A stretch of 64,000 bases of DNA from Tachypleus tridentatus. Lineage: Eukaryota; Arthropoda; Merostomata; Xiphosura; Limulidae. The stretch is from positions 41,348,348-41,412,347 of the forward strand of contig NC_134825.1 of NCBI RefSeq assembly GCF_004210375.1. The letters are read 5' to 3'. Numbering within the stretch: position 1 is the stretch's first letter; the number at the start of each line of letters is the position of its first letter. Made by a program: the position numbers and the translations under genes. Of the stretch, positions 15,517-64,000 are shown in pieces. Under the pieces are notes generated by a model. It was not told the origin of the DNA and did not search any database. It saw nothing but the letters and a program-made list of their open reading frames with translations.

Positions 15517-15520
<4 letters not shown>

Positions 15521-16793: not shown

Positions 16794-16799
16794 CACAGT

Positions 16800-19255: not shown

Positions 19256-19261
19256 AAAAGT

Positions 19262-22685: not shown

Positions 22686-24118
22686 ACATTTGAACATCGA
22701 TTGTGTATTGATATCGAGCAATGTACAGTAAATACACTCTTTTGGTAAGAAATGAGTCTTAATGAAGGTTTCTGAAATAAATTAGAGCCATGTTTGTGAT
22801 TTCAGAAAAATACTAACAAGCAAATAAATAAATTGAAATTTGATATCTTTCGACAAAACTGTTTTAAATAACCACGAAACAGATTAAAAGGGAAGTTAGT
22901 TTTCAAAAGCTGTAATTTTATTTATGTACAGTTTCATAAATTATTATGGAAAAGTGAGCGAAACACTAATAATCAGAAACTTAGGGACTGGTAGCCCAAC
23001 TACTTCCAGAACTCCTGTATTCTATACACACGACACACCCGTGCTTTACTTATGAAAACCACTTCACACGAAATTTAACAGTTGCAGCACAAATTACAAG
23101 GTTCAGCCACGCGAGTGGCAATGCCTTCCCTTATTACGCTTACATCAAGCATTTTGAAGCTTAAATCTGTCATCCTTCTCATGAAAAAAAATTAATAAAA
23201 TATCTAATAAAATTGTTTGTTTTTCACAAATATTTCAATCTGTATGACTGAAAATATACCAATCACAAGAAGTAAAACATTGAACTACACGTGTTTATAT
23301 TTGCTATGATTTCATCTACATTGACAATTTTATCCACTCATTAATTTTCAATTGATTAAGATAAGATATTCTTGCATTATTCTTTTGAAAAACATTAGGT
23401 ACAAACTGGATTAGAAACACCATATGAAACAGTGTTCTTAAAGATGTAAAACTGTATTCTCACTCTCTTGCCAGTGGCGTGAGTCTCTTTGTTACTATGG
23501 TTTCTTCCATGAAAAAATTGCCACTTGTAATTCTCAACGCAAGGGTTTTGGATTCTCTTTTGTTCGTTATGTATTTTATTTTACCCTACTTCTTTAGACC
23601 TGTAGATGGATTGGTTAACTGATGAGTCCAAGCTTGTTGTGTCTGAAGCTAAAGTGTTGCTGAGTTAAACAATATGTAATGTTTGAAATTTTCAAATGTT
23701 GGTGGTTAAATTCTATAGTTTTTTCGATTAATAGGCATTAATCACAATTATAGTTTCCTAGGCCTGTAGCACGTTGACTGTAGATGCCCAATAACAATAT
23801 TAATCTTCTCTCTTGGTGCGCTGCTTTTATATAAACCATGCGAAACTAGATTATACACCGAAGGTCGCTTGGCAAACGTATTGTCAATCAGTAGCATTAC
23901 ATACACACCTAGTACTTTGTTGATTCTTACGATCGAGAATCTTCTATTAATTTCGAGAACAGGCAGGACTTGTGAATTACACAGCCCACAGTAAACGTCA
24001 TAAGAAAAAATAAAATTACACTGAAAGAAGCGAAGGTACTACACTAAATGTACAATAGTAAATCTGTTACAAAATAAAAACCGATAACTCAAGTGAGACT
24101 GAATTACCTTTTGACGAG
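22686..24118. other. Non-coding DNA entering the left inverted arm
   Basis: I see no gene. From about 23,909 the sequence is the reverse complement of the extreme right end of the window. Confidence 0.5.
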
Positions 24119-24119
24119 G

Positions 24120-24392
24120 AACGCCCGGCATGGCCAAGCGTGTTAAGGCGTGCGACTCGTAATCTGAGGGTCGCGGGTTCGCATCCCCGTCGCGCCAAAC
24201 ATGTTCGCCCTTTCAGCCGTAGAGGCGTTATAATGTGACGGTCAATGTGATGGTAAAAGAGTAGCCCAAGAGTTGGTGGTGGGTGGTGATGACTAGCTGC
24301 CTTCCCTCTAGTCTTACACTGCTAAATTAGGGACGGCTAGCACAGATAGCCCTCGAATAGCTTTGTGCGAAATTCAAAACGAAAACAAAATT
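24120..24392 (+). repeat. tRNA-derived SINE (Thr-like family), near full length
   Basis: The head begins GCCCGGCATGGCCAAGCG (A-box region). A CTCGTAA anticodon-loop-like segment (CGT, threonine-like) and a B box GGTTCGCATCC follow, then the conserved body with GGTGGTGATGACTAGCTGCC and the tail AGCTTTGTGCGAAATTC. The bases after the anticodon loop do not form a paired stem, so this is not a functional tRNA. The right-arm copy is at 63,519-63,792. Confidence 0.92.
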
Positions 24393-24708
24393 GAGGAGGA
24401 ACGGGTAAATAAAGAGAAACCTCAGAGTCAGAGCATGTTAGTGTTGTGTTAGTTGATGAAGTAATAATGACAAGGGACATCTCAGTTAAAAACACTAGAA
24501 GTGAAGATAAGGACCCCAGTAACAAATAATATGTCAAATACTTTCCCAATGATATATGAGTAGAACCTTATATCATGCAGATGCTCAAGTAGTTGCATAC
24601 AAACCCAAGAATGATGTGAATGAAAGTAGGTAATATTGCCTCTAATAACATAACAAACACTGGATAATATGATACTCTATTTATGAAGTTGTAATTACGT
24701 TAAGTAGG

Positions 24709-24955
24709 TTTGTTTCTTTATTTTGAATATTGCACAAAGCCATACGAAAACGATCTACGCCAGCTGTCCCTGATTTAGCAGAGTAAGACAAGAGGAAAAG
24801 CAACTCCTGGGGTACTCTTTCAAACGAATAATGGGATTGACCATAATAACGCCCTAAGAATGAAAGGGCGAACATGTTTAGTTAAATGTGGATTCGCACC
24901 CGTGACTCTCAGATTACGAGTCGAGTGCCCTTACCACCTGACAATGCCGGGGCAC
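24709..24955 (-). repeat. tRNA-derived SINE (Thr-like family), minus strand
   Basis: The tail complement (TTGCACAAAGCC) is at the left; the head complement with GATTACGAGTCGAGTGCCC and AATGCCGGGGC is at the right. There are internal deletions relative to the copy at 24,120. Mirrored at about 62,951-63,197. Confidence 0.88.
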
Positions 24956-25228
24956 GTAACGTAGGATAAGTCATATATGTATATAATTACATAAGATTAT
25001 ATGTTTATCAAATAAATTGTACAATATATTTTAAGAATAAATACTTAATAATTGTTTAGCTTTATTTGTAACATGAGAGTCACAATCAATTAATTTAAAG
25101 TAAACATTATGACAAATTTAATTACGAAACTCGATAGGGGTCGTACGCATTGTTTGTAACTCATTGATGCAGAGATTATCGAGTGTCGCGTGTAGAGTAC
25201 AGAAGACAGACGATTAGGTGTAATAAAG

Positions 25229-25285
25229 ATAAATAGTTTGGTTTGATGTTTCATAGCACAAAGCAACTAGACTATCTGCGCTAAA
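25229..25285 (-). repeat. SINE tail fragment
   Basis: A short piece with TTTCATAGCACAAAGCAACT and CTATCTGCGC, matching the tail shared by the SINE families, with no tRNA-like head. Present in the right arm near 62,620-62,678. Confidence 0.5.
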
Positions 25286-25794
25286 GATAAATAAATAGTG
25301 TGATTGGAATAGTAGAAGTAGAAAAACAGACAAAAATTAGCAGACGAGATGTTACGAAACGGAAGTAGGCCAAAGAAAAGTAAAAAGGGAAGTTAATCGT
25401 CGTGGAAGGCCTTACGATTAATATAGGCCTAATAATTGATATATTATTGTGAGTATTGTAAAAGATAACGAAAATAATTTATTTCGCCAAAGAGAGAACT
25501 GAGCATATATTTATATTAAATCTTTTAAAATCAAAATTACAGCTTAACTTCAGTTTGACGTATCTTAAAAAACAAAAGGCCAGCTAAGCCTAAAGTTACC
25601 ACTAACCAACGTAAGCCTTATCGAAAGAATCTGTTTCTGTTATGGCGAAATAGAAAATAAGAAATGTATTTCATTACAAAAAAATATGATGAAATTCAAA
25701 ATACGAAGCGAAATTTAACGTTTACAAAACTTGCAGATTAAAATAATTGACACCAACCTTCCTAAAAATAAAAGTATACCTCCAGACCAAAAAT
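25286..25794. other. Non-coding DNA
   Basis: I see nothing supported. The sequence is virtually identical in both arms. Confidence 0.5.
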
Positions 25795-25918
25795 CTCCCC
25801 AGTGGCTCAGCAGTATGTCTGCGGAATTGCAACACTAAAAACTGGGTGTCGATACCCGTGATGGGCAGAGCACAGATAGCCCATTGTGTAGCTTTGTGCT
25901 TAATACAAAACAACAACC
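25795..25918 (+). repeat. tRNA-derived SINE (Val-like family)
   Basis: The head CCCCAGTGGCTCAGCAGTA, a B box near GGTGTCGATACCC, and the tail GAGCACAGATAGCCCATTGT followed by GTAGCTTTGTGCTTAATAC. The tail is closely related to that of the Thr-like SINE although the heads differ. Mirrored at 61,987-62,110. Confidence 0.85.
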
Positions 25919-26231
25919 AGACCAAAGAATCAAATATATCACAGAAGAACTTCAAATTAAAAGTTTAAAACAAAGTATAAAGGAAATTTTCTGCAAAAAT
26001 GAACTGAATCCCCGCAACAAACTTGCAAGTTTAACTTCCTCTGAATATTACTATTATCACCATTCATACGTAAAATCACATACTATAAAGGCTTAACAAT
26101 CAACTAAAGCAGCCCTGGATTAACCATTAAGCAAAATACGCACGTGATTAGGGCACCAATGGAAGGGAGAACCACAGAGATTTCCCCTTAGTTATAATGC
26201 CCTTACCTCTTTCACTTCCACACTTAACTTT

Positions 26232-26256
26232 GGTTGATTTTTTTTTTTTTTTTTTG
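26232..26256. repeat. Poly-T tract
   Basis: A run of about seventeen or more T in the left arm, mirrored as poly-A at about 61,650-61,667. The length may differ between arms. Confidence 0.9.
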
Positions 26257-27474
26257 TAATTGCTCTTACCTACCGTGCTTGACTTTACTCTGCATTGTTA
26301 AAAAAGTTTTCTTTGGCTCGGTTAGTGACTAAAGTTTCGAGAATCTACTAAACTATATATCTGAAGTAAGAAGTAATTGATTTGCGAAAGATTACTGTAA
26401 AGAGTGGTTCAAAATGTTGATACAACTTCAGGTAAAAGATGATCATATGTTATGATGTCTAACCTTGCAGATGAAATATTTTTCTCAATCATTCCTTCTG
26501 CTGTGGCTATATATAAGAAATTTTCGGCAGTGGAACTGTTTTGTTTTATCTTTTACTGCTTTAATGAGTCACATCTACAGAAACAAAAGAGAATAATACC
26601 ACAGAAATATAAGTCAAACGAAATGGTAACATGTGTACAGAGACGTGGCTAGTTTAATGTTTTTTTCGGCTTTGTTTTCGTGCCTTATATTTGGGTTATT
26701 GTCTTGTTTGTTTTAGTTTTATTTGCGTTAGTATTGCTTTATTTGTGTGTTTTGTAATATTTTTATAAGTGTGTTTTTCACTGAAGTTTTCTGAGCCGTT
26801 ACGTTTTTTGGCTTCAAATAGCTTGCTGTTAAAAAACCTTTGTTTGTGAGTACATTGTTTGCAATTTATCATACCAAGAAAAATTTTAGAAAGGAATGCT
26901 ACTGTAGCAATGCCACCGTTCATATATTACATGTAACCTATAAGAGCATTTGGGCATGTATGCATACCCTTCTAATTATGTAATAATATAAGCAGATCTG
27001 AAGCTGAGATTTACTAAGGAGATACGTACAAGGGTGCCTTCTGGTGATATTTTTTTATGAGACGAACGAACAATCCGAGACAGAAACACAAATACAACGA
27101 AGAGAAACTTTCAGGTGTAATTCAACTATTTTGTGACTATAAATTCAGTTCACTATGTGTTGTATTACATTTCTGAAAAGCTGGGAAAACAATTGAATGA
27201 TCGGAGCAGTCTGAAGGCGATAATTCGACCTTTTAGGTCAAATTACGTAAGACTTCGACATGTTCGATAACAAGGTTCTTAACATTGCTATGTTTATACC
27301 ATACGACTAGTAGTAGTACAGTACTGTGGCACCGTGGTCATACGAAGATAATGTAAACTGAAAAATCAAGAAAATCAATTTAGGATTGAAAAAGTGCATA
27401 AACTAAACAACTTCATGTGAGCAAGGTTAGTACTAAGTACTAGGCTTAACGTTAGTGGCCTCAGTTGCAATGTA

Positions 27475-27682
27475 CAGGGTGGCCCATATATCTTATGTAT
27501 CTGTGTGCTGTCCCTCATTCTCTCTGCATAATATGCGATGCCATGTTCTGTGAGATATTTTCAAGTATAAATGGGATACATCGGCCATATTTCTGTGAAA
27601 AAAAGAAACGAATATATAATACATGCGTAATTGAATATAACATAATAACATATGGATGGGTAGGGACTTACGGGCCACCCTG
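27475..27682. mobile_element. mariner-type MITE, left-arm copy with one damaged TIR
   Basis: The ends CAGGGTGGCCC and GGGCCACCCTG are inverted, with TA on both sides. The left TIR is shortened by about 26 bases compared with the right-arm copy at 60,198-60,431. A short minus-strand frame inside contains MADVSHLYLKISHRTW, perhaps the residual C-terminal coding end of a mariner-like transposase. Confidence 0.8.
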
Positions 27683-28536
27683 TATTAGCATTAGGCCTGA
27701 CGTTAATGTCATCTGAGAACTGAGTGACAATAACGTTAAGCCTAAATACTGTAACAAGTTTAGTGTAAGTACACTGGAAACGCTACTGTAGCCTGGAATA
27801 ATGAAGTGGACTATTCCCAGTGTAAGGCTGTCGTTTTGAATTTGCCTTCGCATCCAGGCATGTAAGTAAAGTTTCAGACATATGCCTATTTCGTTGATGT
27901 ATGGTTTGTTGGCTCATCTAAAGTCCCAGGTCAAATCTGAGCTCAAAAGAAAAGTTGAGGTTACAACTCATTCTTCAGATATTAGGATTAAGGTACTCTA
28001 GCCCAGGCCTAACCCAGTATTTAATAATTCAATGTGCAATACAGTTTACAACTGATTATATGTTATATATGTGTACTATTACAGAATGATTACTGTGTAT
28101 ATAGGCTACTACAGAATGTGTTGTGGATCACAAATTGTTTTGGAATACTTTTTTGGCTCACAATGGATTTACATATTACTATTGTCATTGCTTCTTGCAA
28201 TCAGCTACCATAACAACAACCTTAATGAAACTTTTGCAATGACTGAAAATTAATTTTTCTAAAATGGATTGAGGCCAGTCATGAATGGTTTTCAATGGTT
28301 ATCAGAATACAGCAAGTCAATAAAAGTATTTATGAATTCATGTTTATGTGCTGATGGATCTGGACCCGAGGATAACTTTCTGACAGTCTTTGTCTAAATG
28401 TAGACCTAGAGTTTAGTATGTTTGACTGTCTTACGAATGTTTTTCTTTATAAATTTCAGTGTTTTTCTTATCATTATAACTATATATGATCCGTATTATT
28501 TTGTGTTTTTTTTCTCTGTATATTTCAGACTGCAAG

Positions 28537-30165
28537 ATGAAACAAGTTCATTTAAGTGGTGCACAAAAGAAAAAACTGGCAGAAAAGAACCAACAAAAGG
28601 CTTTGGATTTAGTGGCCAAGACTAGATAGCAGACTAATTTGTTCACTGAACTTACACAACAAGATCTTCCAAATCAAAACCCATCTCTGCCATGAGAAGT
28701 CACTTGTACTGTATCTGACTCTGACATGATTAAAGTTGAACCAAGCTCCACATCTACAAGTACCACTTTGTCCACTTGAAGGTCAGAACATTATGATGAC
28801 GTTGAGGTGTCACAGGCTTGCTCAACTGGAACAACTTTCACAACTGATCTTACTTTGCTTGTAAATTCTCCAGATATCTCTAGTGTTAATGTTGATGCAA
28901 GTTTCTCCACAAGACAGTTTGAAGTTGAAATAATTTCTGAAAATGAAAATTGCTGAACTATGGTAAAATGCTTCAGTCTAAAAAAGATGAAGAAACTAAA
29001 GCAAAAGATCCAGGGTTGTGGCTCGATTTCTCTGCTGCTGATGTGGCTTATTCGATTGCTTGTGGACCCACTGACTGTTAACACCACAATGGGTCATTTG
29101 TTAAATCTTGCTGGACTTTCAATAGTAGCAAACTAATGAAATACTGTTTGCAAAACTTTTCTTTGGGGTAAAAGCCAATGGTGAGTAATACAAGAGAGAA
29201 TGGTTGTTGTATTCACTGTCGACTCTTTGTCCCTAAATTTTCCTCGTGTTTTGTTGAAAGAGAAGGGTTCAGTGACTGGCGAAATACTATTGTAATTGAT
29301 CATCATTAAAGAAGCACTACTCACCGAAACTCTATGTTAACATACTTAACTTACAGACAAGGTTTAGGCTTGCAACAAGAGTTGGAAAAGAAATTAAAAG
29401 AAGAGTGCGATTACTGGGAGCATGTCTTGGAGCATGCAATAGTTGTTATTTGTACGTTAGCTGAACGTAGCCTGGCTTTTCACAGAACAGATGAAATTTG
29501 GTTCACTGCAGAATGGGAATTTTTTAGGGCTACATTGGCTCATAAGTCAGTTTGATCCAGTTTAGCAGGGCATATTTATAAATATGGAAATTTTGGAAAA
29601 GGAAATCCTTCATACTTGTCCAAAACCGCCTATGAAGGATTCATTGAACCAATGGTTCAGAAGGTCTACACATTCGTTGTTGATGAAGTAAATTCTTCTT
29701 GTTATTTTAGCTTGTCAGTTGACTCGACGCCAGATCTATCACATATAGATCAGATAAGAGTTGAACTCGATACTTAAAAAATGGGCAGCCTATTGAATGC
29801 TTTTTAACCTTTTTGGAACCAAAAAGTCAAATGACTGATGAAATGGCAAACCAGGTATTGCAGTACTTACGTGAACTTAGCAAACTTAATTTTACAAAAT
29901 ATAGGGGTCAGTCTTATGACAATGCTGCTAACATGTCTGGGCGTTATAAGGATATGCAGCAAAAGATTTTAGAAGAAAATAAGTTTGCCATATATGTGCC
30001 TTGTGCAGCCCATTCATTAAATCTGGTAGACCGAAGTTCTTTCTACTGCTGTCAAGTGGCAATTAACTTTTCTCTACAATGTATTTGCTCTATACATATT
30101 TTTCAGCCTCAACCAGCCAGTGGAAAATTTTTTAAAGCTTGCACAATTAGGCAGCACGTGCTTCC
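28537..30165 (+). pseudogene. hAT-family (DUF4371/ZMYM1-like) transposase, decayed
   Basis: The reading begins at an ATG at 28,537 (MKQVHLSGAQKKKLAEKNQQ) and meets its first stop after about 29 codons. Later pieces follow DUF4371 order. They are GLWLDFSAADVAYSIACGP around 29,020-29,075, LQQELEKKLKEECDYWEHVL at 29,360, LAERSLAFHR, the segment GHIYKYGNFGKGNPSYLS at about 29,570, YFSLSVDSTPDLSHIDQIRV at about 29,705, and then YRGQSYDNAANMSG at 29,900 and FAIYVPCAAHSLNLVDRSS at about 29,985. Four or more stops or frameshifts occur. Similarity ends near 30,165, where a Tigger-like pseudogene on the other strand abuts it. A duplicate lies on the right arm. Confidence 0.88.
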
Positions 30166-30167
30166 AT

Positions 30168-30912
30168 ATTGCTCTCATGCTACTCTCGCTTCGTTGATAT
30201 TCTCGATAGCACTTCTGATGATGTAATTTTTCCAGAATTTAGTCGAAGATAGTGCAGCTTCTGTAATTGTAGTCTTTATTGCTTGAGAGAAAGTTCGCTT
30301 CAAATAATAAGCTTCAAACGTTACAATGACACCGTGATTCATTAATTGCAGTAGAGATGTTGTATTGGGTGGAAAAAGATGAATTTTGACATTTCCAAGT
30401 CCTGTTGGATGGCTTTAAAGTCCAAGTTGTTTTCTTTTGCAGTAATGTTCAACTGAAGGACAAAAATAGCTTTTTTAACCAGTCTTCAAACAAAGGTTTT
30501 GTGACCCATGCTTTTTTTTATTTGATCGCCAAACAACTGGAAGAGTCTTCTTTGCACAACTGATAAGTGTTCGGGGTGTTTCCGCACGATACACAAGCAC
30601 AGGTTTTAATTTAAAATCGCCAGATCCATTTCCGCGAAACAAGTGTCAAACGATCTTTTACCCCTTCTAACGTGGCCGAGTTTTTTTCATTTTCTGATAG
30701 AAAAGTTCTTGAAGGCACTTTTTTCCCAAAATAAACCCCTTTTATCAACATTAATATTTGGTTATCTTCGTAACGAACTTTTTATTAATTTGAACTTTCG
30801 CCTGCAATATGAATATTATGAAAACCAGAGTGTTTTTTAAAACGAAAGAACCAATCACGGCTTGCCAAAAATATTTCTTTAGTTCCCCATTCACCAACGT
30901 TTTCTTTAAAGG
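30168..30912 (-). pseudogene. Tigger/jerky-like transposase, 3' half (5' half deleted in this arm)
   Basis: Minus-strand fragments include RDWFFRFKKHSGFHN (end of the CENP-B HTH domain), KVPSRTFLSENEK, GVKDRLTLVS, KKAWVTKPLFEDWLKKLF and YYLKRTFSQAI. These are in the order of jerky/Tigger transposases, with stops and frameshifts between. The coding start is missing because the left arm carries a 744-bp deletion that removes it. The right-arm copy (56,395-57,715) preserves the earlier part. Confidence 0.82.
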
Positions 30913-31040
30913 CGGCCCGGCATGGCGAAGCGTGTTAAGGCGTGCGACTCGTAATCTGAGGGTCGCGGGTTCGCATCCCGGTCGCGCCAACATTCTCGCC
31001 CTCCCAGCCGTGGGGTCGTTATAATGTGACGGTTAATATC
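30913..31040 (+). repeat. tRNA-derived SINE (Thr-like), truncated by deletion
   Basis: The head and first body segment are intact to GTGACGGTTA, where the sequence switches to unrelated DNA (ATATCCAAGAACACAC). The right arm has the full SINE at 56,695-56,966, so the truncation is a later deletion and not 5' truncation at insertion. Confidence 0.9.
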
Positions 31041-31307
31041 CAAGAACACACTTCAAAGACGAAGAGAAATACGTAACAAGATATTTATGAAATTGAAGAT
31101 TTATAAAAACATAAATCTACGTTTCAAAAACCGAAGTGTCACAGTAACAAAAATTACATTTAACAAAGGATTTCGTTCATGTACTATCGTGTAATTGATT
31201 TATACGTTAGTTTTGCATACTATTCTTCTCAGTTTTCAGTTGTTTAACTGAGAAATGAACAACTTAAAAATCTAGAAGCAAATGTATCTTAACGTCAAAT
31301 TAATAGA

Positions 31308-31530
31308 TAGGTTTGTTTTTTAATCTCGCGTAAAACAAGACGAGCCGTCCCTAATTTAGCAATGTAAAACTAAAGTGAAGGCAGCTATTCATCACCACCT
31401 ATCGCCAACTCTTGGGTTACTCTTTCACCAACGAATAGTGGGATTGACCGTCACATTATAACGGGGATTTGAACTCGCGACTTTCGGATTATGAGTCGAG
31501 TGCCTTAACCACCTGGCCATGCTGGGCCTG
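31308..31530 (-). repeat. tRNA-derived SINE (Thr-like), internally deleted
   Basis: Minus-strand copy with a degraded tail (AATCTCGCGTAAAACAAGAC), conserved body, and a head ending CCACCTGGCCATGCTGGGCC. The linker between B box and body is missing compared with the 24,120 copy. Mirrored at 55,609-55,832. Confidence 0.88.
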
Positions 31531-31578
31531 AGGGGAAAGTAGCATTTGCAATTTCTATAATATTTATTATAAATCTTG

Positions 31579-31700
31579 CCCCCCGCTAGTACAAAGGTAT
31601 GTCTCCGGATTTACAACGCTAAAATCAGGGGTTCGATTCCCCTCGGTGGGCTGAGCAGATAGCCCGATGTGGCTTTGCTATACGAAAAACACAAACACAC
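31579..31700 (+). repeat. tRNA-derived SINE (Val-like family)
   Basis: The head CCCCGCTAGTACAAAGGTA precedes a TTTACAA loop (TAC, valine-like anticodon) and an intact B box GGTTCGATTCC. The tail TGAGCAGATAGCCCGATGTG leads into GGCTTTGCTATACG and a short CA-rich stretch. Mirrored at 55,436-55,562. Confidence 0.87.
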
Positions 31701-31845
31701 ACATAATAAATCTTAGGCTTATTTGATTCAGGGAATTAACTTTATTGCAACAGCACAACAAAACTGTGATAGTACTTTACCTGGCAACCATGAACAGCGT
31801 AATGAACATATTACCGTTTTCAGGACGGAAGATCTATTGAAATCT

Positions 31846-32079
31846 TGGCCTGGCATGGCCAAGTGTGATAAGGCGTTCGACTCGTAATCCGAGGGTCGCG
31901 GGTTCGAATCCCGGTCGCACTAAACATACTCGCCTCCCAGCCGTGGGGGCGTTATAATGTGATGGTCAATCCCACTATTCGTTGGTAAAAGAGTAGCCCA
32001 AGAGTTGGCGGTGGGTGGTGATGACTAGCTGCCTTCCCTCTAGTCTTACACTGCTAAATTAGGGACGACTAGCACAAAT
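31846..32079 (+). repeat. tRNA-derived SINE (Thr-like), 5' portion, split by the THAP/SWIM element
   Basis: The head GGCCTGGCATGGCCAAGTGT, a perfect B box GGTTCGAATCC and the full body run to AGCACAAAT. The 2.2-kb THAP/SWIM element follows, and the SINE tail (AGCCTTCGAATAGCTTTGTG) resumes at 34,282 and ends near 34,321. The interruption gives the order of events: SINE first, element second. Confidence 0.92.
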
Positions 32080-32214
32080 AGAGGTTTAGCGTGAACCTAT
32101 ATAGTGTCACGTGACCACAACGAGGTTTGTAAACATATCGCCATATTGGGTGGCAAGTGTCCCTCATGACTGAACGAGTTAACAACTGCTGTATTCAGTA
32201 CTATTCACATGTAA

Positions 32215-33211
32215 ATGGCTGCCGCTGGCTTTTCATCACTTGTAGCACACCTGACAGGTGCTGATAAGGCCAGGTATGAGGAAAACGTGAAGGAACTGGG
32301 TGTAGGAGACCCGTATATGCTCCCGCCACGTGTATTTACGCCAGTAATATCCAGCCAAGACAACGTTGTTCAGAGTCAGACTGTTTCCGGAGTAGATCTG
32401 CCATATATTACATATGGTGACATTTATATATATTTGATAAACAGGACTTCCACCTATACAAATGAAAGTCTAAAAGGTTACAAAAGCCTTGATGCGTACA
32501 AGTATTTTGTGGCAGGATTTGTACAGAATGTGCAGATAACCAGGGCAACGTCGGATAAAGTCATCATTACAGCAAAAGTTTGTACATCATGTTGTATTAC
32601 ATACATGTATCATGTACTCTGTATGATAGATTTAACTACATTTTAGACGAAGACTAGATACTTAAGTAAAGTAGGGCCCCCCATTTTAATAAATGGTTCA
32701 ATATTATTGTACTACATGTGTACTGACTGTTGTCAAAGCTCTAGCCTAGAGCACTTCTATACATGTTTGTATAATGATATTAAGACACCTTATTGTCTAG
32801 GCTGTTTCAAAACTTAATTTTGATTTATGATTAATTTTTGGTAAGGAATCAATATATAGATAATAAATAGTACAAGTAGACATAGACCGTTAAAGCTGGT
32901 CAATAGCCATGTTAGGTTTCTGTAAAAATAATTTAATATTTAGCTGTTCTGTTATTTTTTTATATTATTTTATTATTTGAGTGACACATGTATCCCAACC
33001 TGATACCCAGTTGTCTTTAAAGCTTATATATACACAACTTAATATTTTCTTTGTTATTTTACAGGTGTGCCACTCTCAGCGGCTAAATGAACCACCACTA
33101 AAGCTATGGGTTGCTAGTTGCAGGAATGGAGAGATAATATCTTCCCACTGCACCTGCAAGGCTGGACTAGGTGAAGTCTGCTCCCACGTTGGCATTCAGA
33201 TTCAAGTCTAA
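32215..33211 (+). CDS. SWIM zinc-finger protein, truncated (two exons)
   Basis: Exon 1 is 32,215-32,577 (121 codons from the ATG) with donor AAAA|GTTTGT. Exon 2 starts at 33,065 after TTATTTTACAG, and both sides are phase 0. Exon 1 contains LPYITYGDIYIYLINRTSTY and SLDAYKYFVAGFVQNV. Exon 2 gives PPLKLWVASCRNGEIISSHC followed by TCKAGLGEVCSH, a CxCx7CxH SWIM zinc finger. This arrangement is known from multicopy invertebrate proteins in which the SWIM motif is followed by a YqaJ-type exonuclease domain. Here that domain is absent: the frame leaves the family just after CSHVG and stops at 33,209-33,211. The protein may bind DNA or protein but cannot be a nuclease. Exon 1 is identical in translation between the two arms. 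Confidence 0.72.
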
Positions 33212-34190: not shown

Positions 34191-34281
34191 CGCGCACTTT
34201 TGACAATGAATCACCCTTGTGTTGGAATATAAACACGGTCAGCAGTAACTAGGTCAAGAGTGACGTCACACGCAAACCTCT

Positions 34282-34321
34282 ATAGCCTTCGAATAGCTTT
34301 GTGCGACATTCGAAAAACAAA
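34282..34321 (+). repeat. SINE 3' tail, continuation of 31,846-32,079
   Basis: ATAGCCTTCGAATAGCTTTG plus TGCGACATTCG and an A-rich end. This is the missing tail of the SINE split by the THAP/SWIM element. Confidence 0.9.
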
Positions 34322-52824: not shown

Positions 52825-52865
52825 GTTTGTTTTTCGAATGTCGCACAAAGCTATTCGAAGGCTAT
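52825..52865 (-). repeat. SINE 3' tail at the THAP/SWIM element edge (right arm)
   Basis: Tail of the split SINE whose head and body lie at 55,059-55,296. Confidence 0.88.
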
Positions 52866-52956
52866 AGAGGTTTGCGTGTGACGTCACTCTTGACCTAGTT
52901 ACTGCTGACCGTGTTTATATTCCAACACAAGGGTGATTCATTGTCAAAAGTGCGCG

Positions 52957-54024
52957 ATGGTACACTCGTGTTGTGCATTTAACTGTTCAAATCGACATGG
53001 ACAGGTGGAAAATGTGTCATACTACAGATTTCCTATAGATCCCGACCGAAGAAGACGATGGATTGCAGCTGTCAATAGGAAAAACTGGACACCCACAGAG
53101 CACACCAGACTTTGTAGTAAACATTTTGTGTCAGGTATCTATAATTCATCTATAGCCAGGCTGAATAAATTGAAACTTACACGCATGATATATGTACAGC
53201 AGAGCACACTGCAGCACCAGTCAAAGAAATGTTTTTGCACACTTTTCTTTTACTTTTAAATTACTGAATAGTAAATTTACTGAAGGAACAATATTATTCA
53301 TGATGAATAGGTTATATAGCCATTTGTACATTAAGACAAAATGTTAATATCTCTTAAAGGACCAATTTAAGTGATTCATCAGAAAACCACAACTGGCACA
53401 AAATTAAATAGTGTGCAAATAATTAATTTGTTGGCTGTACATTCAGTTGTTAAACAATGTTCAGCATATTCAGTTATATATATATATATATATTTAGTTA
53501 AAAGTGTACAGTGTATGTGTTATATATATAAATATTATCTGATCATGCCTGTAGGTCTATATCTTAACAAAATTATTGTACTCTGTTTCAGGGACGAAGA
53601 GTGATGATCCCCTATCACCTGACTATGTACCTTCCATATTTCATTTTACACGTTCTCCCTGAAGAGAAGGAAAGCTGCTGAATTGTGTAAATATGAAAAC
53701 AGGAAAGAAGTGACCAAAAGGAGAAAAGAACAACAAAAGAGACATGAAGCTGCTGCTGGGCTGCTTGAACTTGCTTTCATAGAATCTGCTGGCACTGCTG
53801 CCACTGATAGCAGCTGTACTGATTCTGCTGATGAACTTGAAGCTACATGTGATAATTTTGACTTGTGTACATCACAATATACAACTGAGACATGTATGCA
53901 GACGGAAATATCATTCATAGACTTAGTTAGACTTGAATCTGAATGCCAACGTGGGAGCAGACTTCACCTAGTCCAGCCTTGCAGGTGCAGTGGGAAGATA
54001 TTATCTCTCCATTCCTGCAACTAG
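52957..54024 (+). pseudogene. THAP protein gene, right-arm copy with a 1-bp frameshift
   Basis: Exon 1 is 52,957-53,134 (MVHSCCAFNCSNRHGQ start); exon 2 starts at 53,592 with the same splice sites as the left copy. Near 53,653-53,660 this copy reads TCTCCCTGAAG where the left reads TCTCCCCTGAAG. One C is missing, so a stop follows directly after HFTRSP. The remaining frame (53,683-54,024) is otherwise preserved. THAP-domain changes from the left are R/H, H/N and F/L. It may be a real null allele or a homopolymer sequencing error. Confidence 0.75.
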
Positions 54025-54924
54025 CAACCCATAGCTTTAGTGGTGGTTCATTTAGCCGCTGAGAGTGGCACACCTGTAAAATAACAAAGAAAATATTAAG
54101 TTGTGTATATATAAGCTTTTAAAGACAACTGGGTATCAGGTTGGGATACATGTGTCACTCAAATAATAAAATAATATAAAAAAATAACAGAACAGCTAAA
54201 TATTAAATTATTTTTACAGAAACCTAACATGGCTATTGACCAGCTTTAACGGTCTATGTCTACTTGTACTATTTATTATCTATATATTGATTCCTTACCA
54301 AAATTAATCATAAATCAAAAATTAAGTTTTGAAACAGCCTAGACAATAAGGTGTCTTAATATCATTATACAAACATGTATAGAAGTGCTCCTAGGCTAGA
54401 GCTTTGACAACAGTCAGTACACATGTAGTACAATAATATTGAACCATTTATTAAAATGGGGGCCCTACTTTACTTAAGTATCTAGTCTTCGTCTAAAATG
54501 TAGTTAAATCTATCATACAGAGTACATGATACATGTATGTAATACAACATGATGTACAAACTTTTGCTGTAATGATGACTTTATCCGACGTTGCCCTGGT
54601 TATCTGCACATTCTGTACAAATCCTGCCACAAAGTACTTGTACGCATCAAGGCTTTTGTAACCTTTTAGACTTTCATTTGTATAGGTGGAAGTCCTGTTT
54701 ATCAAATATATATAAATGTCACCATATGTAATATATGGCAGATCTACTCCGGAAACAGTCTGACTCTGAACAACGTTGTCTTGGCTGGATATTACTGGCG
54801 TAAATACACGTGGCGGGAGCATATACGGGTCTCCTACACCCAGTTCCTTCACGTTTTCCTCATACCTGGCCTTATCAGCACCTGTCAGGTGTGCTACAAG
54901 TGATGAAAAGCCAGCGGCAGCCAT
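53928..54924 (-). CDS. SWIM zinc-finger protein, truncated, right-arm copy
   Basis: Exon 1 is 54,924-54,562 and exon 2 begins at 54,074, mirroring 32,215-33,211. The exon 1 translation is identical to the left copy over 121 codons. Exon 2 carries the same CxCx7CxH motif and the same abrupt end. It overlaps the THAP frame in antisense at the fusion point. Confidence 0.7.
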
Positions 54925-55058
54925 TTACATGTGAATAGTACTGAATACAGCAGTTGTTAACTCGTTCAGTCATGAGGGACACTTGCCACCCAATATGGCG
55001 ATATGTTTACAAACCTCGTTGTGGTCACGTGACACTAATAGGTTCACGCAAAACCTCT

Positions 55059-55296
55059 ATTTGTGCTAGTCGTCCCTAATTTAGCAGTGTAAGACTAGAG
55101 GGAAGGCAGCTAGTCATCACCACCCACCGCCAACTCTTGGGCTACTCTTTTACCAACGAATAGTGGGATTGACCATCACATTATAACGCCCCCACGGCTG
55201 GGAGGCGAGTATGTTTAGTGCGACCGGGATTCGAACCCGCGACCCTCGGATTACGAGTCGAACGCCTTATCACACTTGGCCATGCCAGGCCAAGAT
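55059..55296 (-). repeat. tRNA-SINE (Thr-like), head and body of the split copy (right arm)
   Basis: Complement of the SINE interrupted by the THAP/SWIM element. It has an intact B box and a head ending CTTGGCCATGCCAGGCC. Confidence 0.9.
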
Positions 55297-55435
55297 TTCA
55301 ATAGATCTTCCGTCCTGAAAACGGTAATATGTTCATTACGCTGTTCATGGTTGCCAGGTAAAATACTATCACAGTTTTGTTGTGCTGTTGCAATAAAGTT
55401 AATTCCCTGAATCAAATAAGCCTAAGATTTATTAT

Positions 55436-55562
55436 GTGTGTGTTTGTGTTTTTCTTATAGCAAAGCCACATCGGGCTATCTGCTCAGCCCACCGAGGGGA
55501 ATCGAACCCCTGATTTTAGCGTTGTAAATCCGGAGACATACCGCTGTACTAGCGGGGGGCAA
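55436..55562 (-). repeat. tRNA-SINE (Val-like), mirror of 31,579-31,700
   Basis: Complement of the same insertion, with an intact B box (GGAATCGAACC). Confidence 0.86.
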
Positions 55563-55608
55563 GATTTATAATAAATATTATAGAAATTGCAAATGCTACT
55601 TTCCCCTC

Positions 55609-55832
55609 AGGCCCAGCATGGCCAGGTGGTTAAGGCACTCGACTCATAATCCGAAAGTCGCGAGTTCAAATCCCCGTTATAATGTGACGGTCAATCCCAC
55701 TATTCGTTGGTGAAAGAGTAACCCAAGAGTTGGCGATAGGTGGTGATGAATAGCTGCCTTCACTTTAGTTTTACATTGCTAAATTAGGGACGGCTCGTCT
55801 TGTTTTACGCGAGATTAAAAACAAACCTATCT
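55609..55832 (+). repeat. tRNA-SINE (Thr-like), mirror of 31,308-31,530
   Basis: Same internally shortened copy, plus orientation here. Confidence 0.87.
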
Positions 55833-56394
55833 ATTAATTTGACGTTAAGATACATTTGCTTCTAGATTTTAAGTTGTTCATTTCTCAGTTAAACAACTGA
55901 AAACTGAGAAGAATAGCATGCAAAACTAACGTATAAATCAATTACACGATAGTACATGAATGAAATCCTTTGTTAAATGTAATTTTGTTACTGTGACACT
56001 TCGGTTTTGAAACGTAGATTTATGTTTTATAAATCTTCAATTTCATAAATATCTTGTTACGTATTTCTCTTCGTCTTTGAAGTGTGTTCTTGGATATTAA
56101 AGGAGGTCCGCAGTGAAGCTTAACAGTATGGGGTTCACTGTAATGGGGCTTTATTTATATACGAATAAGCCTTTGGGCCCTTTTTTATTATGGCTGACAT
56201 TTTAATACATATATTTCTGAAAAGATGTCTACGAATTTGTGTCATTCGCTTATTCTAGATCTTTCTACAAGCCTATACAATGCGCATGCACATTATATAC
56301 TGCACAGTATAAATCTGAGCATCACTTGCTGTCAGCGGCAGTTCAGTTTTTTCATGTTAAGGACGGGTGTATACTTTTTACAGAGATCATTTTA

Positions 56395-57715
56395 TTATGC
56401 GTGAGAAAAGAATGTGTGATGATACTGAGCCAAAGAAACCTAACTCGCACGAGACGAAGGAATAAATGAATCATCTGTAAGACTGTTAAATGAAAGAACC
56501 AGTAAAAACAGTATTGAATGGCTACCAACTGTTTTGCCTCGAAAACAATCGTCAAGAAAAGGAGCTCTCTAATGGTGAATATGGAATGTCTGCTATCAAT
56601 ATGGATAGATGATTGTAATCAGAAGCGAATTCCTTTAAGTCAAATGGAAATTCAAACGAAAGCTTCGAGTTTTTTAAACGCCTTTAAAGATTGGTTTGTT
56701 TTGGAATTTCGCACAAAGCTACTCGAGGGCTATCTGTGCTAGCCGTCCCTAATTTAGCAGTGTAAGACTAGAGGGAAGGCAGCTAGTCATCACCACCCAC
56801 CGCCAACTCTTGGGCTACTCTTTTACCAACGAATAGTGGGATTGACCGTCACATTATAACGACCCCACGGCTGGGAGGGCGAGCATGTTTGGCGCGACCG
56901 GGATGCGAACCCGCGACCCTCAGATTACGAGTCGCACGCCTTAACACGCTTGGCCATGCCGGGCCGCCTTTAAAGAAAACGTTGGTGAATGGGGAACTAA
57001 AGAAATATTTTGGCAAGCCGTGATTGGTTCTTTCGTTTTAAAAACACTCTGGTTTTCATAATGTTCGTATTGCAGGCGAAAGTTCAAATTAATAAAAAGT
57101 TCGTTACGAAGATAACCAAATATTAATGTTGATAAAAGGGGTTTATTTTGGGAAAAAAGTGCCTTCAAGAACTTTTCTATCAGAAAATGAAAAAAACTCG
57201 GCCACGTTAGAAGGGGTAAAAGATCGTTTGACACTTGTTTCGCGGAAATGGATCTGGCGATTTTAAATTAAAACCTGTGCTTGTGTATCGTGCGGAAACA
57301 CCCCGAACACTTATCAGTTGTGCAAAGAAGACTCTTCCAGTTGTTTGGCGATCAAATAAAAAAAGCATGGGTCACAAAACCTTTGTTTGAAGACTGGTTA
57401 AAAAAGCTATTTTTGTCCTGCAGTTGAACATTACTGCAAAAGAAAACAACTTGGACTTTAAAGCCATCCAACAGGACTTTGTGACTTTAATGGAAATGTC
57501 AAAATTCATCTTTTTCCACCCAATACAACATCTCTACTGCAATTAATGAATCACGGTGTCATTGTAACGTTTGAAGCTTATTATTTGAAGCGAACTTTCT
57601 CTCAAGCAATAAAGACTACAATTACAGAAGCTGCACTATCTTCGACTAAATTCTGGAAAAATTACATCATCAGAAGTGCTATCGAGAATATCAACGAAGC
57701 GAGAGTAACATGAGA
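56395..57715 (+). pseudogene. Tigger/jerky-like transposase, fuller copy interrupted by a SINE
   Basis: Plus-strand frames include EWLPTVLPRKQSSRKGA near 56,515, then ECLLSIWIDDCNQKRIPLSQ and KASSFLNAFK (CENP-B HTH region) up to 56,694. After a SINE the reading continues with ENVGEWGTKEIF and then the catalytic-domain segments listed for the left copy, ending with FWKNYIIRSAIENINEA near 57,705. Multiple stops and frameshifts exist apart from the SINE. It abuts the hAT pseudogene and probably inserted into it. Confidence 0.82.
56695..56966 (-). mobile_element. tRNA-SINE (Thr-like), full length, inserted in the Tigger pseudogene
   Basis: Complement of a full SINE flanked by the target duplication GCCTTTAAAGA (about 56,681-56,692) and GCCTTTAAAGA (about 56,967-56,977). 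In the left arm the same SINE is cut at its middle by the 744-bp deletion. Confidence 0.93.
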
Positions 57716-57717
57716 GC

Positions 57718-59346
57718 AATATGGAAGCACGTGCTGCCTAATTGTGCAAGCTTTAAAAATTTTCCACTGGCTGGTTGAGGCTGAAAAATATGTATAGAGC
57801 AAATACATTGTAGAGAAAAGTTAATTGCCACTTGACAGCAGTAGAAAGAACTTCGGTCTACCAGATTTAATGAATGGGCTGCACAAGGCACATATATGGC
57901 AAACTTATTTTCTTCTAAAATCTTTTGCTGCATATCCTTATAACGCCCAGACATGTTAGCAGCATTGTCATAAGACTGACCCTATATTTTGTAAAATTAA
58001 GTTTGCAAAGTTCACGTAAGTACTGCAATACCTGGTTTGCCATTTCATCAGTCATTTGACTTTTGGTTCCAAAAGGTTAAAAGCATTCAATAGGCTGCCC
58101 ATTTTTTAAGTATCGAGTTCAACTCTTATCTGATCTATATGTGATAGATCTGGCGTCGAGTCAACTGACAAGCTAAAATAACAAGAAGAATTTACTTCAT
58201 CAACAACGAATGTGTAGACCTTCTGAACCATTGGTTCAATGAGTTCTTCATAGGCGGTTTTGGACAAGTATGAAGGATTTCCTTTTCCAAAATTTCCATA
58301 TTTATAAATATGCCCTGCTAAACTGGATCAAACTGACTTATGAGCTAATGTAGCCCTAAAAATTCCCATTCTGCAGTGAACCAAATTTCATCTGTTCTGT
58401 GAAAAGCCAGGCTACGTTCAGCTAACGTACAAATAACAACTATTGCATGCTCCAAGACATGCTCCCAGTAATCGCACTCTTCTTTTAATTTCTTTTTCCA
58501 ACTCTTGTTGCAAGCCTAAACCTTGTCTGTAAGTTAAGTATGTTAACATAGAGTTTCGGTGAGTAGTGCTTCTTTAATGATGATCAATTACAATAGTATT
58601 TCGCCAGTCACTGAACCCTTCTCTTTCAACAAAACACGAGGAAAATTTAGGGACAAAGAGTCGACAGTGAATACAACAACCATTCTCTCTTGTATTACTC
58701 ACCATTGGCTTTTACCCCAAAGAAAAGTTTTGCAAACAGTATTTCATTAGTTTGCTACTATTGAAAGTCCAGCAAGATTTAACAAATGACCCATTGTGGT
58801 GTTAACAGTCAGTGGGTCCACAAGCAATCGAATAAGCCACATCAGCAGCAGAGAAATCGAGCCACAACCCTGGATCTTTTGCTTTAGTTTCTTCATCTTT
58901 TTTAGACTGAAGCATTTTACCATAGTTCAGCAATTTTCATTTTCAGAAATTATTTCAACTTCAAACTGTCTTGTGGAGAAACTTGCATCAACATTAACAC
59001 TAGAGATATCTGGAGAATTTACAAGCAAAGTAAGATCAGTTGTGAAAGTTGTTCCAGTTGAGCAAGCCTGTGACACCTCAACGTCATCATAATGTTCTGA
59101 CCTTCAAGTGGACAAAGTGGTACTTGTAGATGTGGAGCTTGGTTCAACTTTAATCATGTCAGAGTCAGATACAGTACAAGTGACTTCTCATGGCAGAGAT
59201 GGGTTTTGATTTGGAAGATCTTGTTGTGTAAGTTCAGTGAACAAATTAGTCTGCTATCTAGTCTTGGCCACTAAATCCAAAGCCTTTTGTTGGTTCTTTT
59301 CTGCCAGTTTTTCTTTTGTGCACCACTTAAATGAACTTGTTTCATC
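57718..59346 (-). pseudogene. hAT (DUF4371/ZMYM1-like) transposase, right-arm copy
   Basis: Mirror of 28,537-30,165 with the same interruptions and only scattered substitutions, so decay preceded the split of the two arms. Confidence 0.86.
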
Positions 59347-60197
59347 TTGCAGTCTGAAATATACAGAGAAAAAAACACAAAATAATACGGATCATATATA
59401 GTTATAATGATAAGAAAAACACTGAAATTTATAAAGAAAAACATTCGTAAGACAGTCAAACATACTAAACTCTAGGTCTACATTTAGACAAAGACTGTCA
59501 GAAAGTTATCCTCGGGTCCAGATCCATCAGCACATAAACATGAATTCATAAATACTTTTATTGACTTGCTGTATTCTGATAACCATTGAAAACCATTCAT
59601 GACTGGCCTCAATCCATTTTAGAAAAATTAATTTTCAGTCATTGCAAAAGTTTCATTAAGGTTGTTGTTATGGTAGCTGATTGCAAGAAGCAATGACAAT
59701 GGTAATATGTAAATCCATTGTGAGCCAAAAAGTATTCCAAAACAATTTGTGATCCACAACACATTCTGTAGTAGCCTATATACACAGTAATCATTCTGTA
59801 ATAGTACACATATATAACATATAATCAGTTGTAAACTGTATTGCACATTGAATTATTAAATACTGGGTTAGGCCTGGGCTAGAGTACCTTAATCCTAATA
59901 TCTGAAGAATGAGTTGTAACCTCAACTTTTCTTTTGAGCTCAGATTTGACCTGGGACTTTAGATGAGCCAACAAACCATACATCAACGAAATAGGCATAT
60001 GTCTGAAACTTTACTTACATGCCTGGATGCGAAGGCAAATTCAAAACGACAGCCTTACACTGGGAATAGTCCACTTCATTATTCCAGGCTACAGTAGCGT
60101 TTCCAGTGTACTTACACTAAACTTGTTACAGTATTTAGGCTTAACGTTATTGTCACTCAGTTCTCAGATGACATTAACGTCAGGCCTAATGCTAATA

Positions 60198-60431
60198 CAG
60201 GGTGGCCCGTAAGTCCCTACCCATCCATATGTTATTATGTTATATTCAATTACGCATGTATTATATATTCGTTTCTTTTTTCACAGAAATATGGCCGATG
60301 TAACCCATTTATACTTGAAAATATCTCACAGAACATGGCGTCGCATATTATGCAGCGAGAATGAGGGACAGCACACAGATACACTGGATACATAAGATAT
60401 ATGGATGGGTAGGGACTTATGGGCCACCCTG
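60198..60431. mobile_element. mariner-type MITE with ~35-bp TIRs, right-arm copy
   Basis: CAGGGTGGCCCGTAAGTCCC at the left end pairs with the inverted right end CAGGGTGGCCCATAAGTCCC, continuing through TACCCATCCATAT. TA flanks both sides. 234 bp, versus 208 bp in the left arm. Confidence 0.88.
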
Positions 60432-61986
60432 TACATTGCAACTGAGGCCACTAACGTTAAGCCTAGTACTTAGTACTAACCTTGCTCACATGAAGTTGTT
60501 TAGTTTATGCACTTTTTCAATCCTAAATTGATTTTCTTGATTTTTCAGTTTACATTATCTTCGTATGACCACGGTGCCACAGTACTGTACTACTACTAGT
60601 CGTATGGTATAAACATAGCAATGTTAAGAACCTTGTTATCGAACATGTCGAAGTCTTACGTAATTTGACCTAAAAGGTCGAATTATCGCCTTCAGACTGC
60701 TCCGATCATTCAATTGTTTTCCCAGCTTTTCAGAAATGTAATACAACACATAGTGAACTGAATTTATAGTCACAAAATAGTTGAATTACACCTGAAAGTT
60801 TCTCTTCGTTGTATTTGTGTTTCTGTCTCGGATTGTTCGTTCGTCTCATAAAAAAATATCACCAGAAGGCACCCTTGTACGTATCTCCTTAGTAAATCTC
60901 AGCTTCAGATCTGCTTATATTATTACATAATTAGAAGGGTATGCATACATGCCCAAATGCTCTTATAGGTTACATGTAATATATGAACGGTGGCATTGCT
61001 ACAGTAGCATTCCTTTCTAAAATTTTTCTTGGTATGATAAATTGCAAACAATGTACTCACAAACAAAGGTTTTTTAACAGCAAGCTATTTGAAGCCAAAA
61101 AACGTAACGGCTCAGAAAACTTCAGTGAAAAACACACTTATAAAAATATTACAAAACACACAAATAAAGCAATACTAACGCAAATAAAACTAAAACAAAC
61201 AAGACAATAACCCAAATATAAGGCACGAAAACAAAGCCGAAAAAAACATTAAACTAGCCACGTCTCTGTACACATGTTACCATTTCGTTTGACTTATATT
61301 TCTGTGGTATTATTCTCTTTGTTTCTGTAGATGTGACTCATTAAAGCAGTAAAAGATAAAACAAAACAGTTCCACTGCCGAAAATTTCTTATATATAGCC
61401 ACAGCAGAAGGAATGATTGAGAAAAATATTTCATCTGCAAGGTTAGACATCATAACATATGATCATCTTTTACCTGAAGTTGTATCAACATTTTGAACCA
61501 CTCTTTACAGTAATCTTTCGCAAATCAATTACTTCTTACTTCAGATATATAGTTTAGTAGATTCTCGAAACTTTAGTCACTAACCGAGCCAAAGAAAACT
61601 TTTTTAACAATGCAGAGTAAAGTCAAGCACGGTAGGTAAGAGCAATTACAAAAAAAAAAAAAAAAAATCAACCAAAGTTAAGTGTGGAAGTGAAAGAGGT
61701 AAGGGCATTATAACTAAGGGGAAATCTCTGTGGTTCTCCCTTCCATTGGTGCCCTAATCACGTGCGTATTTTGCTTAATGGTTAATCCAGGGCTGCTTTA
61801 GTTGATTGTTAAGCCTTTATAGTATGTGATTTTACGTATGAATGGTGATAATAGTAATATTCAGAGGAAGTTAAACTTGCAAGTTTGTTGCGGGGATTCA
61901 GTTCATTTTTGCAGAAAATTTCCTTTATACTTTGTTTTAAACTTTTAATTTGAAGTTCTTCTGTGATATATTTGATTCTTTGGTCT

Positions 61987-62110
61987 GGTTGTTGTTTTGT
62001 ATTAAGCACAAAGCTACACAATGGGCTATCTGTGCTCTGCCCATCACGGGTATCGACACCCAGTTTTTAGTGTTGCAATTCCGCAGACATACTGCTGAGC
62101 CACTGGGGAG
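61987..62110 (-). repeat. tRNA-SINE (Val-like), mirror of 25,795-25,918
   Basis: Complement of the same insertion, essentially identical. Confidence 0.84.
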
Positions 62111-62950
62111 ATTTTTGGTCTGGAGGTATACTTTTATTTTTAGGAAGGTTGGTGTCAATTATTTTAATCTGCAAGTTTTGTAAACGTTAAATTTCGCTTC
62201 GTATTTTTGAATTTCATCATATTTTTTTGTAATGAAATACATTTCTTATTTTCTATTTCGCCATAACAGAAACAGATTCTTTCGATAAGGCTTACGTTGG
62301 TTAGTGGTAACTTTAGGCTTAGCTGGCCTTTTGTTTTTTAAGATACGTCAAACTGAAGTTAAGCTGTAATTTTGATTTTAAAAGATTTAATATAAATATA
62401 TGCTCAGTTCTCTCTTTGGCGAAATAAATTATTTTCGTTATCTTTTACAATACTCACAATAATATATCAATTATTAGGCCTATATTAATCGTAAGGCCTT
62501 CCACGACGATTAACTTCCCTTTTTACTTTTCTTTGGCCTACTTCCGTTTCGTAACATCTCGTCTGCTAATTTTTGTCTGTTTTTCTACTTCTACTATTCC
62601 AATCACACTATTTATTTATCTTTAGCGCAGATAGTCTAGTTGCTTTGTGCTATGAAACATCAAACCAAACTATTTATCTTTATTACACCTAATCGTCTGT
62701 CTTCTGTACTCTACACGCGACACTCGATAATCTCTGCATCAATGAGTTACAAACAATGCGTACGACCCCTATCGAGTTTCGTAATTAAATTTGTCATAAT
62801 GTTTACTTTAAATTAATTGATTGTGACTCTCATGTTACAAATAAAGCTAAACAATTATTAAGTATTTATTCTTAAAATATATTGTACAATTTATTTGATA
62901 AACATATAATCTTATGTAATTATATACATATATGACTTATCCTACGTTAC

Positions 62951-63197
62951 GTGCCCCGGCATTGTCAGGTGGTAAGGGCACTCGACTCGTAATCTGAGAG
63001 TCACGGGTGCGAATCCACATTTAACTAAACATGTTCGCCCTTTCATTCTTAGGGCGTTATTATGGTCAATCCCATTATTCGTTTGAAAGAGTACCCCAGG
63101 AGTTGCTTTTCCTCTTGTCTTACTCTGCTAAATCAGGGACAGCTGGCGTAGATCGTTTTCGTATGGCTTTGTGCAATATTCAAAATAAAGAAACAAA
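62951..63197 (+). repeat. tRNA-SINE (Thr-like), mirror of 24,709-24,955
   Basis: Same copy, with the same internal deletions, in plus orientation. Confidence 0.87.
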
Positions 63198-63518
63198 CCT
63201 ACTTAACGTAATTACAACTTCATAAATAGAGTATCATATTATCCAGTGTTTGTTATGTTATTAGAGGCAATATTACCTACTTTCATTCACATCATTCTTG
63301 GGTTTGTATGCAACTACTTGAGCATCTGCATGATATAAGGTTCTACTCATATATCATTGGGAAAGTATTTGACATATTATTTGTTACTGGGGTCCTTATC
63401 TTCACTTCTAGTGTTTTTAACTGAGATGTCCCTTGTCATTATTACTTCATCAACTAACACAACACTAACATGCTCTGACTCTGAGGTTTCTCTTTATTTA
63501 CCCGTTCCTCCTCAATTT

Positions 63519-63792
63519 TTGTTTTCGTTTTTGAATTTCGCACAAAGCTATTCGAGGGCTATCTGTGCTAGCCGTCCCTAATTTAGCAGTGTAAGACTAG
63601 AGGGAAGGCAGCTAGTCATCACCACCCACCACCAACTCTTGGGCTACTCTTTTACCATCACATTGACCGTCACATTATAACGCCTCTACGGCTGAAAGGG
63701 CGAACATGTTTGGCGCGACGGGAATGCGAACCCGCGACCCTCAGATTACGAGTCGCACGCCTTAACACGCTTGGCCATGCCGGGCGTTCCTC
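63519..63792 (-). repeat. tRNA-SINE (Thr-like), mirror of 24,120-24,392
   Basis: Complement of the same near full-length copy, with an occasional substitution. Confidence 0.91.
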
Positions 63793-64000
63793 GTCAAAAG
63801 GTAATTCAGTCTCACTTGAGTTATCGGTTTTTATTTTGTAACAGATTTACTATTGTACATTTAGTGTAGTACCTTCGCTTCTTTCAGTGTAATTTTATTT
63901 TTTCTTATGACGTTTACTGTGGGCTGTGTAATTCACAAGTCCTGCCTGTTCTCGAAATTAATAGAAGATTCTCGATCGTAAGAATCAACAAAGTACTAGG

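Follow-up and report, generated by a model that had tools for sequence, protein, structure and literature searches.

Segmental duplications are stretches longer than 1 kb that are found in two or more places of a genome and are at least 90% identical to each other, and the systems closest to the locus described here are interspersed segmental duplications with a lineage-specific receptor family. Horseshoe crabs are animals studied for innate immunity, and chelicerates possess short Dscam genes, in which fibronectin type III domains come after the immunoglobulin (Ig) domains. Heterotype false duplication (haplotig) has also been described, with an assembly gap between the members of a pair on one scaffold, and with half read depth, one-copy k-mers and discordant read pairs as further signs (PMC9516828). 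In Tachypleus tridentatus, a window of 64,000 nucleotides (C1:41348348-41412347, the whole stretch of DNA analysed) holds two long inverted arms with a receptor-like gene, which face each other across a run of 500 N. The arms are probably non-allelic, two copies of a segment 40 kb or more in length that was recently duplicated many times within and between chromosomes, and their head-to-head order is best treated as an unproven join.

Flanking sequence was added to the window, 140 kb on its left side and 80 kb on its right, and the resulting 284-kb stretch of the scaffold was compared with itself by BLAST. Coordinates are window positions; those that are negative or above 64000 lie on the same scaffold outside the window. 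The genome searched comprised 2,167,478,450 bases in 205 contigs, and since only the best candidates of each genome-wide search were scored, copy counts taken from these searches are lower bounds. Three 500-N gaps divided the 284-kb stretch into four contigs (Table 1), with the left arm in contig A, the right arm in contig B and a third copy of the arm in contig C. In the window the arms were paired in inverted orientation in three blocks, 64000-56841 with 23908-31037 (98.97%), 56100-51456 with 31033-35686 (98.03%) and, nearest to the gap, 50578-45973 with 36564-41202 (91.4%). The E-values of the arm matches were 0, which excludes chance. The full homology left the window on both sides, running from -6872 to 35686 on the left arm and from 94799 to 51456 on the right, about 42 kb.

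An earlier note on this DNA had described the right arm as the reverse complement of the left, still matching at the window edge, and as starting exactly at the N run in the middle of an exon. Both statements held, the first over a greater length than the window could reveal. The gap was exactly 500 bases (45473-45972), and the right arm began at the first base after it (45973), cutting an ephrin-receptor-like exon. The centre was asymmetric, with the right arm stopping in mid-exon and the left arm extending 4.3 kb further toward the gap. This extension (41203-45472), which the same note took to be present once, was single only within the window: it recurred in the third copy about 177 kb upstream (98.3% over 41651-45472), and its part from 42915 on was also present in a C9 copy (96%).

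Many other copies of the segment were dispersed over the genome. When the arm interior at 20000-22000 was used as query (40 of 14,596 candidates scored), at least 10 places matched at 99-100% over at least 1.9 kb; among those scored were the left arm itself, B, C, two places on C9 and five on C19. The place at C9:124750081 and the right arm were about equally close to the left arm (3576 and 3585 bits, respectively).

The outer flanks of the two arms were unrelated. A and B left the homology at -6872 and 94799 in N-free sequence, and between the A flank (-70470..-6873) and the B flank (94800..144000) there was no match of at least 400 bp at E 1e-50. A 3-kb piece of the B flank, itself aside, matched best at 94% over its length and at 95% in one 770-bp piece, with no other match above 95% among the candidates scored. 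The B edge was crossed unbroken by four family copies, two on C6 and two on C7, at 88-93%. At the A edge, the arm side matched B (99%) and the same C6 and C7 copies (87-94%), and the flank side belonged to another dispersed family, present at C19:26676074 at 98% up to the junction, and on C8 and C7 at 93% with an overlap of 19 bp across the junction. Thus B keeps the order of the family and A breaks it. The outer edge of the homology differed by copy, lying at -6872 (A against B), 3699 (third copy) or about 5325 (C9 copy). With near-identical copies elsewhere and unrelated flanks, the arms are probably not alleles of one locus. C19 (69.8 Mb) also holds many copies of flank pieces.

The divergence among the arm copies was arranged in blocks. 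The main alignment of A and B (38,034 columns) contained 139 substitutions (0.37%) and 86 gaps, of which 62 were 1-2 bp homopolymer changes; the next 4,665 columns contained 62 substitutions and 19 gaps, 12 of the latter being such changes, which were taken for long-read consensus errors. Toward the gap A and B became less alike, and beyond 35.35 kb the identity in blocks of 250 columns was mostly about 90-97%. In a three-way comparison over A 3700-35300, the odd one out was C at 110 sites, A at 73 and B at 37. These sites were clustered, roughly C at 5-25 kb, A at 26-32 kb and B at 32-35.1 kb, with a mixed first 1.5 kb (A 19, C 8, B 6) and A again the odd one at 35.22-35.29 kb, the 3' end of the Ig frame. 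From 35.35 kb gapward, A and C mostly agreed at 96% or more, and B was mostly about 90-97% identical to both. The left arm at 35987-41202 was 98-99% like the third copy and only 87-91% like the right arm. The first 2.7 kb of the right arm after the gap were 98.3% identical to C19:25330515 (L005), compared with 89.7-95.4% in long pieces for eight other places. Two stretches were found in both arms and were absent from the third copy (Table 1). One is an insert of 1.17 kb, which we take to be transposon-like, and another is a stretch of 1.06 kb. The edge of the former was also seen in a C9 copy, so the inserts alone do not show A and B as sisters.

The arms are thus two of many near-identical copies, with unrelated flanks, gap-free outer edges and block-wise divergence, and they exceed 1 kb, are at least 90% identical and lie in more than one genomic place, as segmental duplications do. 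A segment carrying the receptor-like gene would have been duplicated repeatedly with ragged edges, and exchange between copies may have produced the blocks. The contigs would end inside near-identical copies presumably as the assembler could not resolve them, and scaffolding would then have chosen their order and orientation and set them side by side with 500-N gaps. The published assembly of the species (CNA0000821) is given as 204 scaffolds with 2,167,470,406 bases, a scaffold N50 of 169,002,194 and a contig N50 of 1,689,442 (PMC7815833). At 61 kb and 116 kb, the two contigs on the left side of the gap are short compared with this contig N50 of 1.69 Mb, and both end within the repeated segment. 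A and C end within 132 bases of the same point, and B ends elsewhere, in the second exon. With a 500-N gap between contigs that end in repeats, the inverted orientation is an unproven join.

Contig C carries the third copy at -131570..-91331, in the orientation of B, and its homology with A reaches the final base of A. The flank of contig C (-91330..-70971) was compared with the genome at two places. For a 3-kb piece, one near-identical twin was found at C12:81927308-81930311 (5385 against 5413 bits), and the next match among those scored was 70% identical (40 of 706 candidates scored). The junction between arm and flank split cleanly: the arm side belonged to B (99%), A (98%) and the family, and the flank side to C12:81942311-81943646 at 100%, with a 4-bp overlap. 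No arm match adjoined this C12 place among the matches scored. Short overlaps were therefore seen at two junctions, here and at the A edge. Contig C could be either the other haplotype of the C12 locus with the arm inserted, a chimera, or a very recent interchromosomal duplication; under either of the first two readings, C1 is the wrong place for it. It ends in a short exon, whose peptide had its best PDB match in ASH2 proteins (E 3.4e-4), and nothing was found by a Pfam scan of 9 kb of its flank in three frames.

Several points weigh against reading the arms as separate genomic copies. Contig C, judging from its matches, is probably misplaced in the scaffold and may duplicate a locus of C12. 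Contig A could be misplaced or chimeric as well: 3 kb around an Ig exon in its outer flank (Table 1) had three other copies at 99-100%, on C9, C19 and C8, with many further copies at about 86-98% (40 candidates scored), so the A flank is not unique either and the placement of A on C1 is weakened. The 0.37% substitutions between A and B are below the heterozygosity of 0.8% reported for another horseshoe crab (PMC7210998), and are in line with alleles. The divergence blocks could stem from consensus switching in assembly instead of exchange. Two other assemblies of the species are smaller, at 1.72 and 1.94 Gb (PMC7815833), and a third has been reported at 2.06 Gb; since the present assembly is larger than all three, part of the copy number may be false duplication.

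The explanation which the earlier note preferred is that the arms represent both alleles of a single locus, which were assembled as separate contigs and then joined head to head in scaffolding. The 500 N between the pair, the low substitution rate, the shortness of both left-hand contigs, the haplotig-like twin of neighbouring contig C on C12 and an assembly large for the species all agree with it. The suspicion still holds for the join itself, made only across Ns next to short contigs ending in repeats. As a statement that the arms are alleles it is nevertheless unlikely: alleles should stay homologous in the outer flanks, which here are unrelated and gap-free; one copy on C9 is about equally close; a third copy lies in the same scaffold; and identity between the arms drops to 91% next to the gap, where the right arm switches to C19-type sequence at 98%. 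Large structural differences between the haplotypes would be required in addition.

A true palindrome, in which paralogous arms really stand head to head on C1 with a short spacer, is quite improbable. Inverted neighbours may be usual in the family, as elsewhere in the genome 7 of 37 neighbouring pairs of ephrin-receptor-like exons less than 100 kb apart lay in opposite orientation (the two listed exons of this locus left out first). In the palindrome expected, continuous sequence would join the arms, and here no contig crosses the centre, which is occupied by the 500 N; the centre is asymmetric, and neighbouring contig C is probably misplaced. A giant mobile element, with ends that are fixed and the receptor-like gene as cargo, is scarcely credible as an account of the arm and was rejected, since in spite of its dispersal over many scaffolds with a conserved order of parts, the three outer edges in the copies examined differ and the C6 and C7 copies continue past the B edge. 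The preferred account remains that of dispersed, non-allelic copies. As the earlier note had warned, gene counts here depend on how the arms are explained, and any claim of a palindrome or of gene copy number from this locus is unsafe. Purging one arm as a haplotig is probably wrong too, as it would delete a paralogue.

The receptor-like gene on the arms begins with an Ig exon, followed by an intron of about 6 kb and an ephrin-receptor-like cysteine-rich exon. The matched part of the left-arm Ig exon is 34976-35242 (C1:41383323-41383589), and from its translation this exon likely carries a signal peptide. The closest PDB chains were contactin-1 for the Ig exon (6.4e-13) and a mastigoneme-like protein for the ephrin-receptor-like exon (2.8e-06). 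The gene probably has further exons, and downstream frames common to A and the C9 copy may encode a cytoplasmic tail; no other Pfam domain was found in 35500-45472 (+) of the window or in 10 kb of the C9 copy on the gene's strand. The stretch at 36.5-41.2 kb was also considered as two unrelated repeat insertions. This was rejected, as in both arms the stretch separates the two exons of the gene, and dispersed gene copies match it at 90% or more.

Throughout the genome, 150 Ig exons of 301 candidates and 150 ephrin-receptor-like exons of 427 were scored, best matches only. Of the 150 ephrin-receptor-like exons, 89 were preceded on their own strand by a scored Ig exon no more than 15 kb away (median 5.6 kb), in contrast to 1 with an Ig exon on the opposite strand and 9 with one downstream. 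C19 was the richest scaffold, with 54 of the 150 Ig exons and 35 of the 150 ephrin-receptor-like exons. Internal stops occurred in 6 of the 150 ephrin-receptor-like exons versus 37 of the 150 Ig exons, the latter counted by eye among best matches, which means that a considerable share of the family is either broken or affected by sequencing errors. The Ig exon of copy C, matched over residues 24-88, contained a stop. Twelve copies of the ephrin-receptor-like exon were aligned, after two duplicate loci were dropped, one copy gave no exon and the cut exon of B was excluded. Exon and intron divergence were alike (4.1% and 4.2%), and pairwise codon differences were 208 synonymous and 129 non-synonymous, uncorrected counts giving a hint of purifying selection.

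Table 1. Positions of the arms, exons, contigs and repeats (window coordinates)
Feature	Position	Strand	Size	Evidence or remark
Left arm (contig A), well-matched part in window	1..35686	+		self-BLAST; homology begins at -6872, outside window
Left arm, gap-proximal part	35987..41202	+		first intron and second exon of receptor-like gene; self-BLAST
Stretch single-copy in window	41203..45472	+		self-BLAST of 284-kb stretch; C9 comparison
Scaffold gap between contigs A and B	45473..45972	.	500 N	self-BLAST
Right arm (contig B), gap-proximal part, diverged paralogue	45973..51455	-		self-BLAST; C19 comparison
Right arm (contig B), well-matched part in window	51456..64000	-		self-BLAST; homology runs on to 94799
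Open frame with Ig exon, left arm	34781..35245	+		Pfam Ig_3 6.8e-07, ig 1.2e-05, I-set 1.7e-05
Open frame with Ig exon, right arm	51872..52366	-		Pfam Ig_3 4.5e-07
Ephrin-receptor-like cysteine-rich exon, left arm	41071..41232	+		Ephrin_rec_like 3.4e-12 on frame 41011-41253
Ephrin-receptor-like exon, right arm, cut by gap	45973..46104	-		
Leftmost contig	ends at -132203			position relative to window
Contig C	-131702..-70971		61 kb	carries third arm copy
Contig A	-70470..45472		116 kb	carries left arm
Contig B	from 45973 to beyond 144000			carries right arm
Ig exon in outer flank of contig A	-65007..-64651	-		above Pfam Sp38 cut-off (29.4 vs 23.1 bits)
Transposon-like insert (presumed)	7662..8835	.		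in both arms, absent from third copy; alignment breaks, site sequence
1.06-kb stretch	14439..15497	.	1.06 kb	in both arms, absent from third copy
Interspersed repeat sites in window	24123-24388, 31847-32081, 51183-51453, 55057-55291, 56691-56965, 63519-63785		230-275 bp	

Some smaller features were also observed. A 65-bp tandem repeat of 4.7 copies (41589-41896) was partly skipped in alignments with several other gene copies, and its copy number seems to vary between them. An interspersed repeat of 230-275 bp, perhaps a short interspersed element (SINE), occurred many times in the 284-kb stretch, and a DDE-type transposase remnant was found at 5307-5732 (Pfam DDE_1 3.4e-18). tRNA and Rfam scans of the window gave zero matches.

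The locus offers a glimpse of a large receptor-like family that has been spreading recently in the horseshoe crab. Going further, we suggest tentatively, as a possibility, that Tachypleus tridentatus has hundreds of Ig plus ephrin-receptor-like cell-surface genes, richest on C19, and that stretches of at least 40 kb are still being copied from one chromosome to another, with exchange between copies reshuffling the genes at the Ig exon. Such behaviour would be expected of a repertoire for immunity or self-recognition.

Among known systems, the zona-pellucida-binding proteins (Sp38 family) are approached by the Ig exon in the flank of A, which passes the family cut-off (29.4 against 23.1 bits), and differ from the arm gene itself, whose Ig exons score 14.6 and 15.3 bits for the Sp38 N-terminal Ig domain, below that cut-off; the name ZPBP was rejected for it on this ground. 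With chelicerate short Dscam the arm gene shares a receptor-like build that opens with a likely signal peptide followed by an Ig domain, and differs in having an ephrin-receptor-like exon. Scans of 35500-45472 (+) of the window and of 10 kb from the C9 copy, on the strand of the gene, gave no fibronectin type III domain, and the name short Dscam was rejected for want of that domain in the spans scanned. Heterotype false duplication, as set out in PMC9516828, is alike in the assembly gap between arms on one scaffold, and different in that the flanks here are unrelated and many other near-identical copies exist. No Ig plus ephrin-receptor-like family turned up in the open-licence literature, which was searched for it and for horseshoe-crab segmental duplications. 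The likeness is greatest to interspersed segmental duplications with a lineage-specific receptor family. There too, the near-identical copies are long, carry genes and lie on several chromosomes, their edges are ragged, and they diverge block by block.

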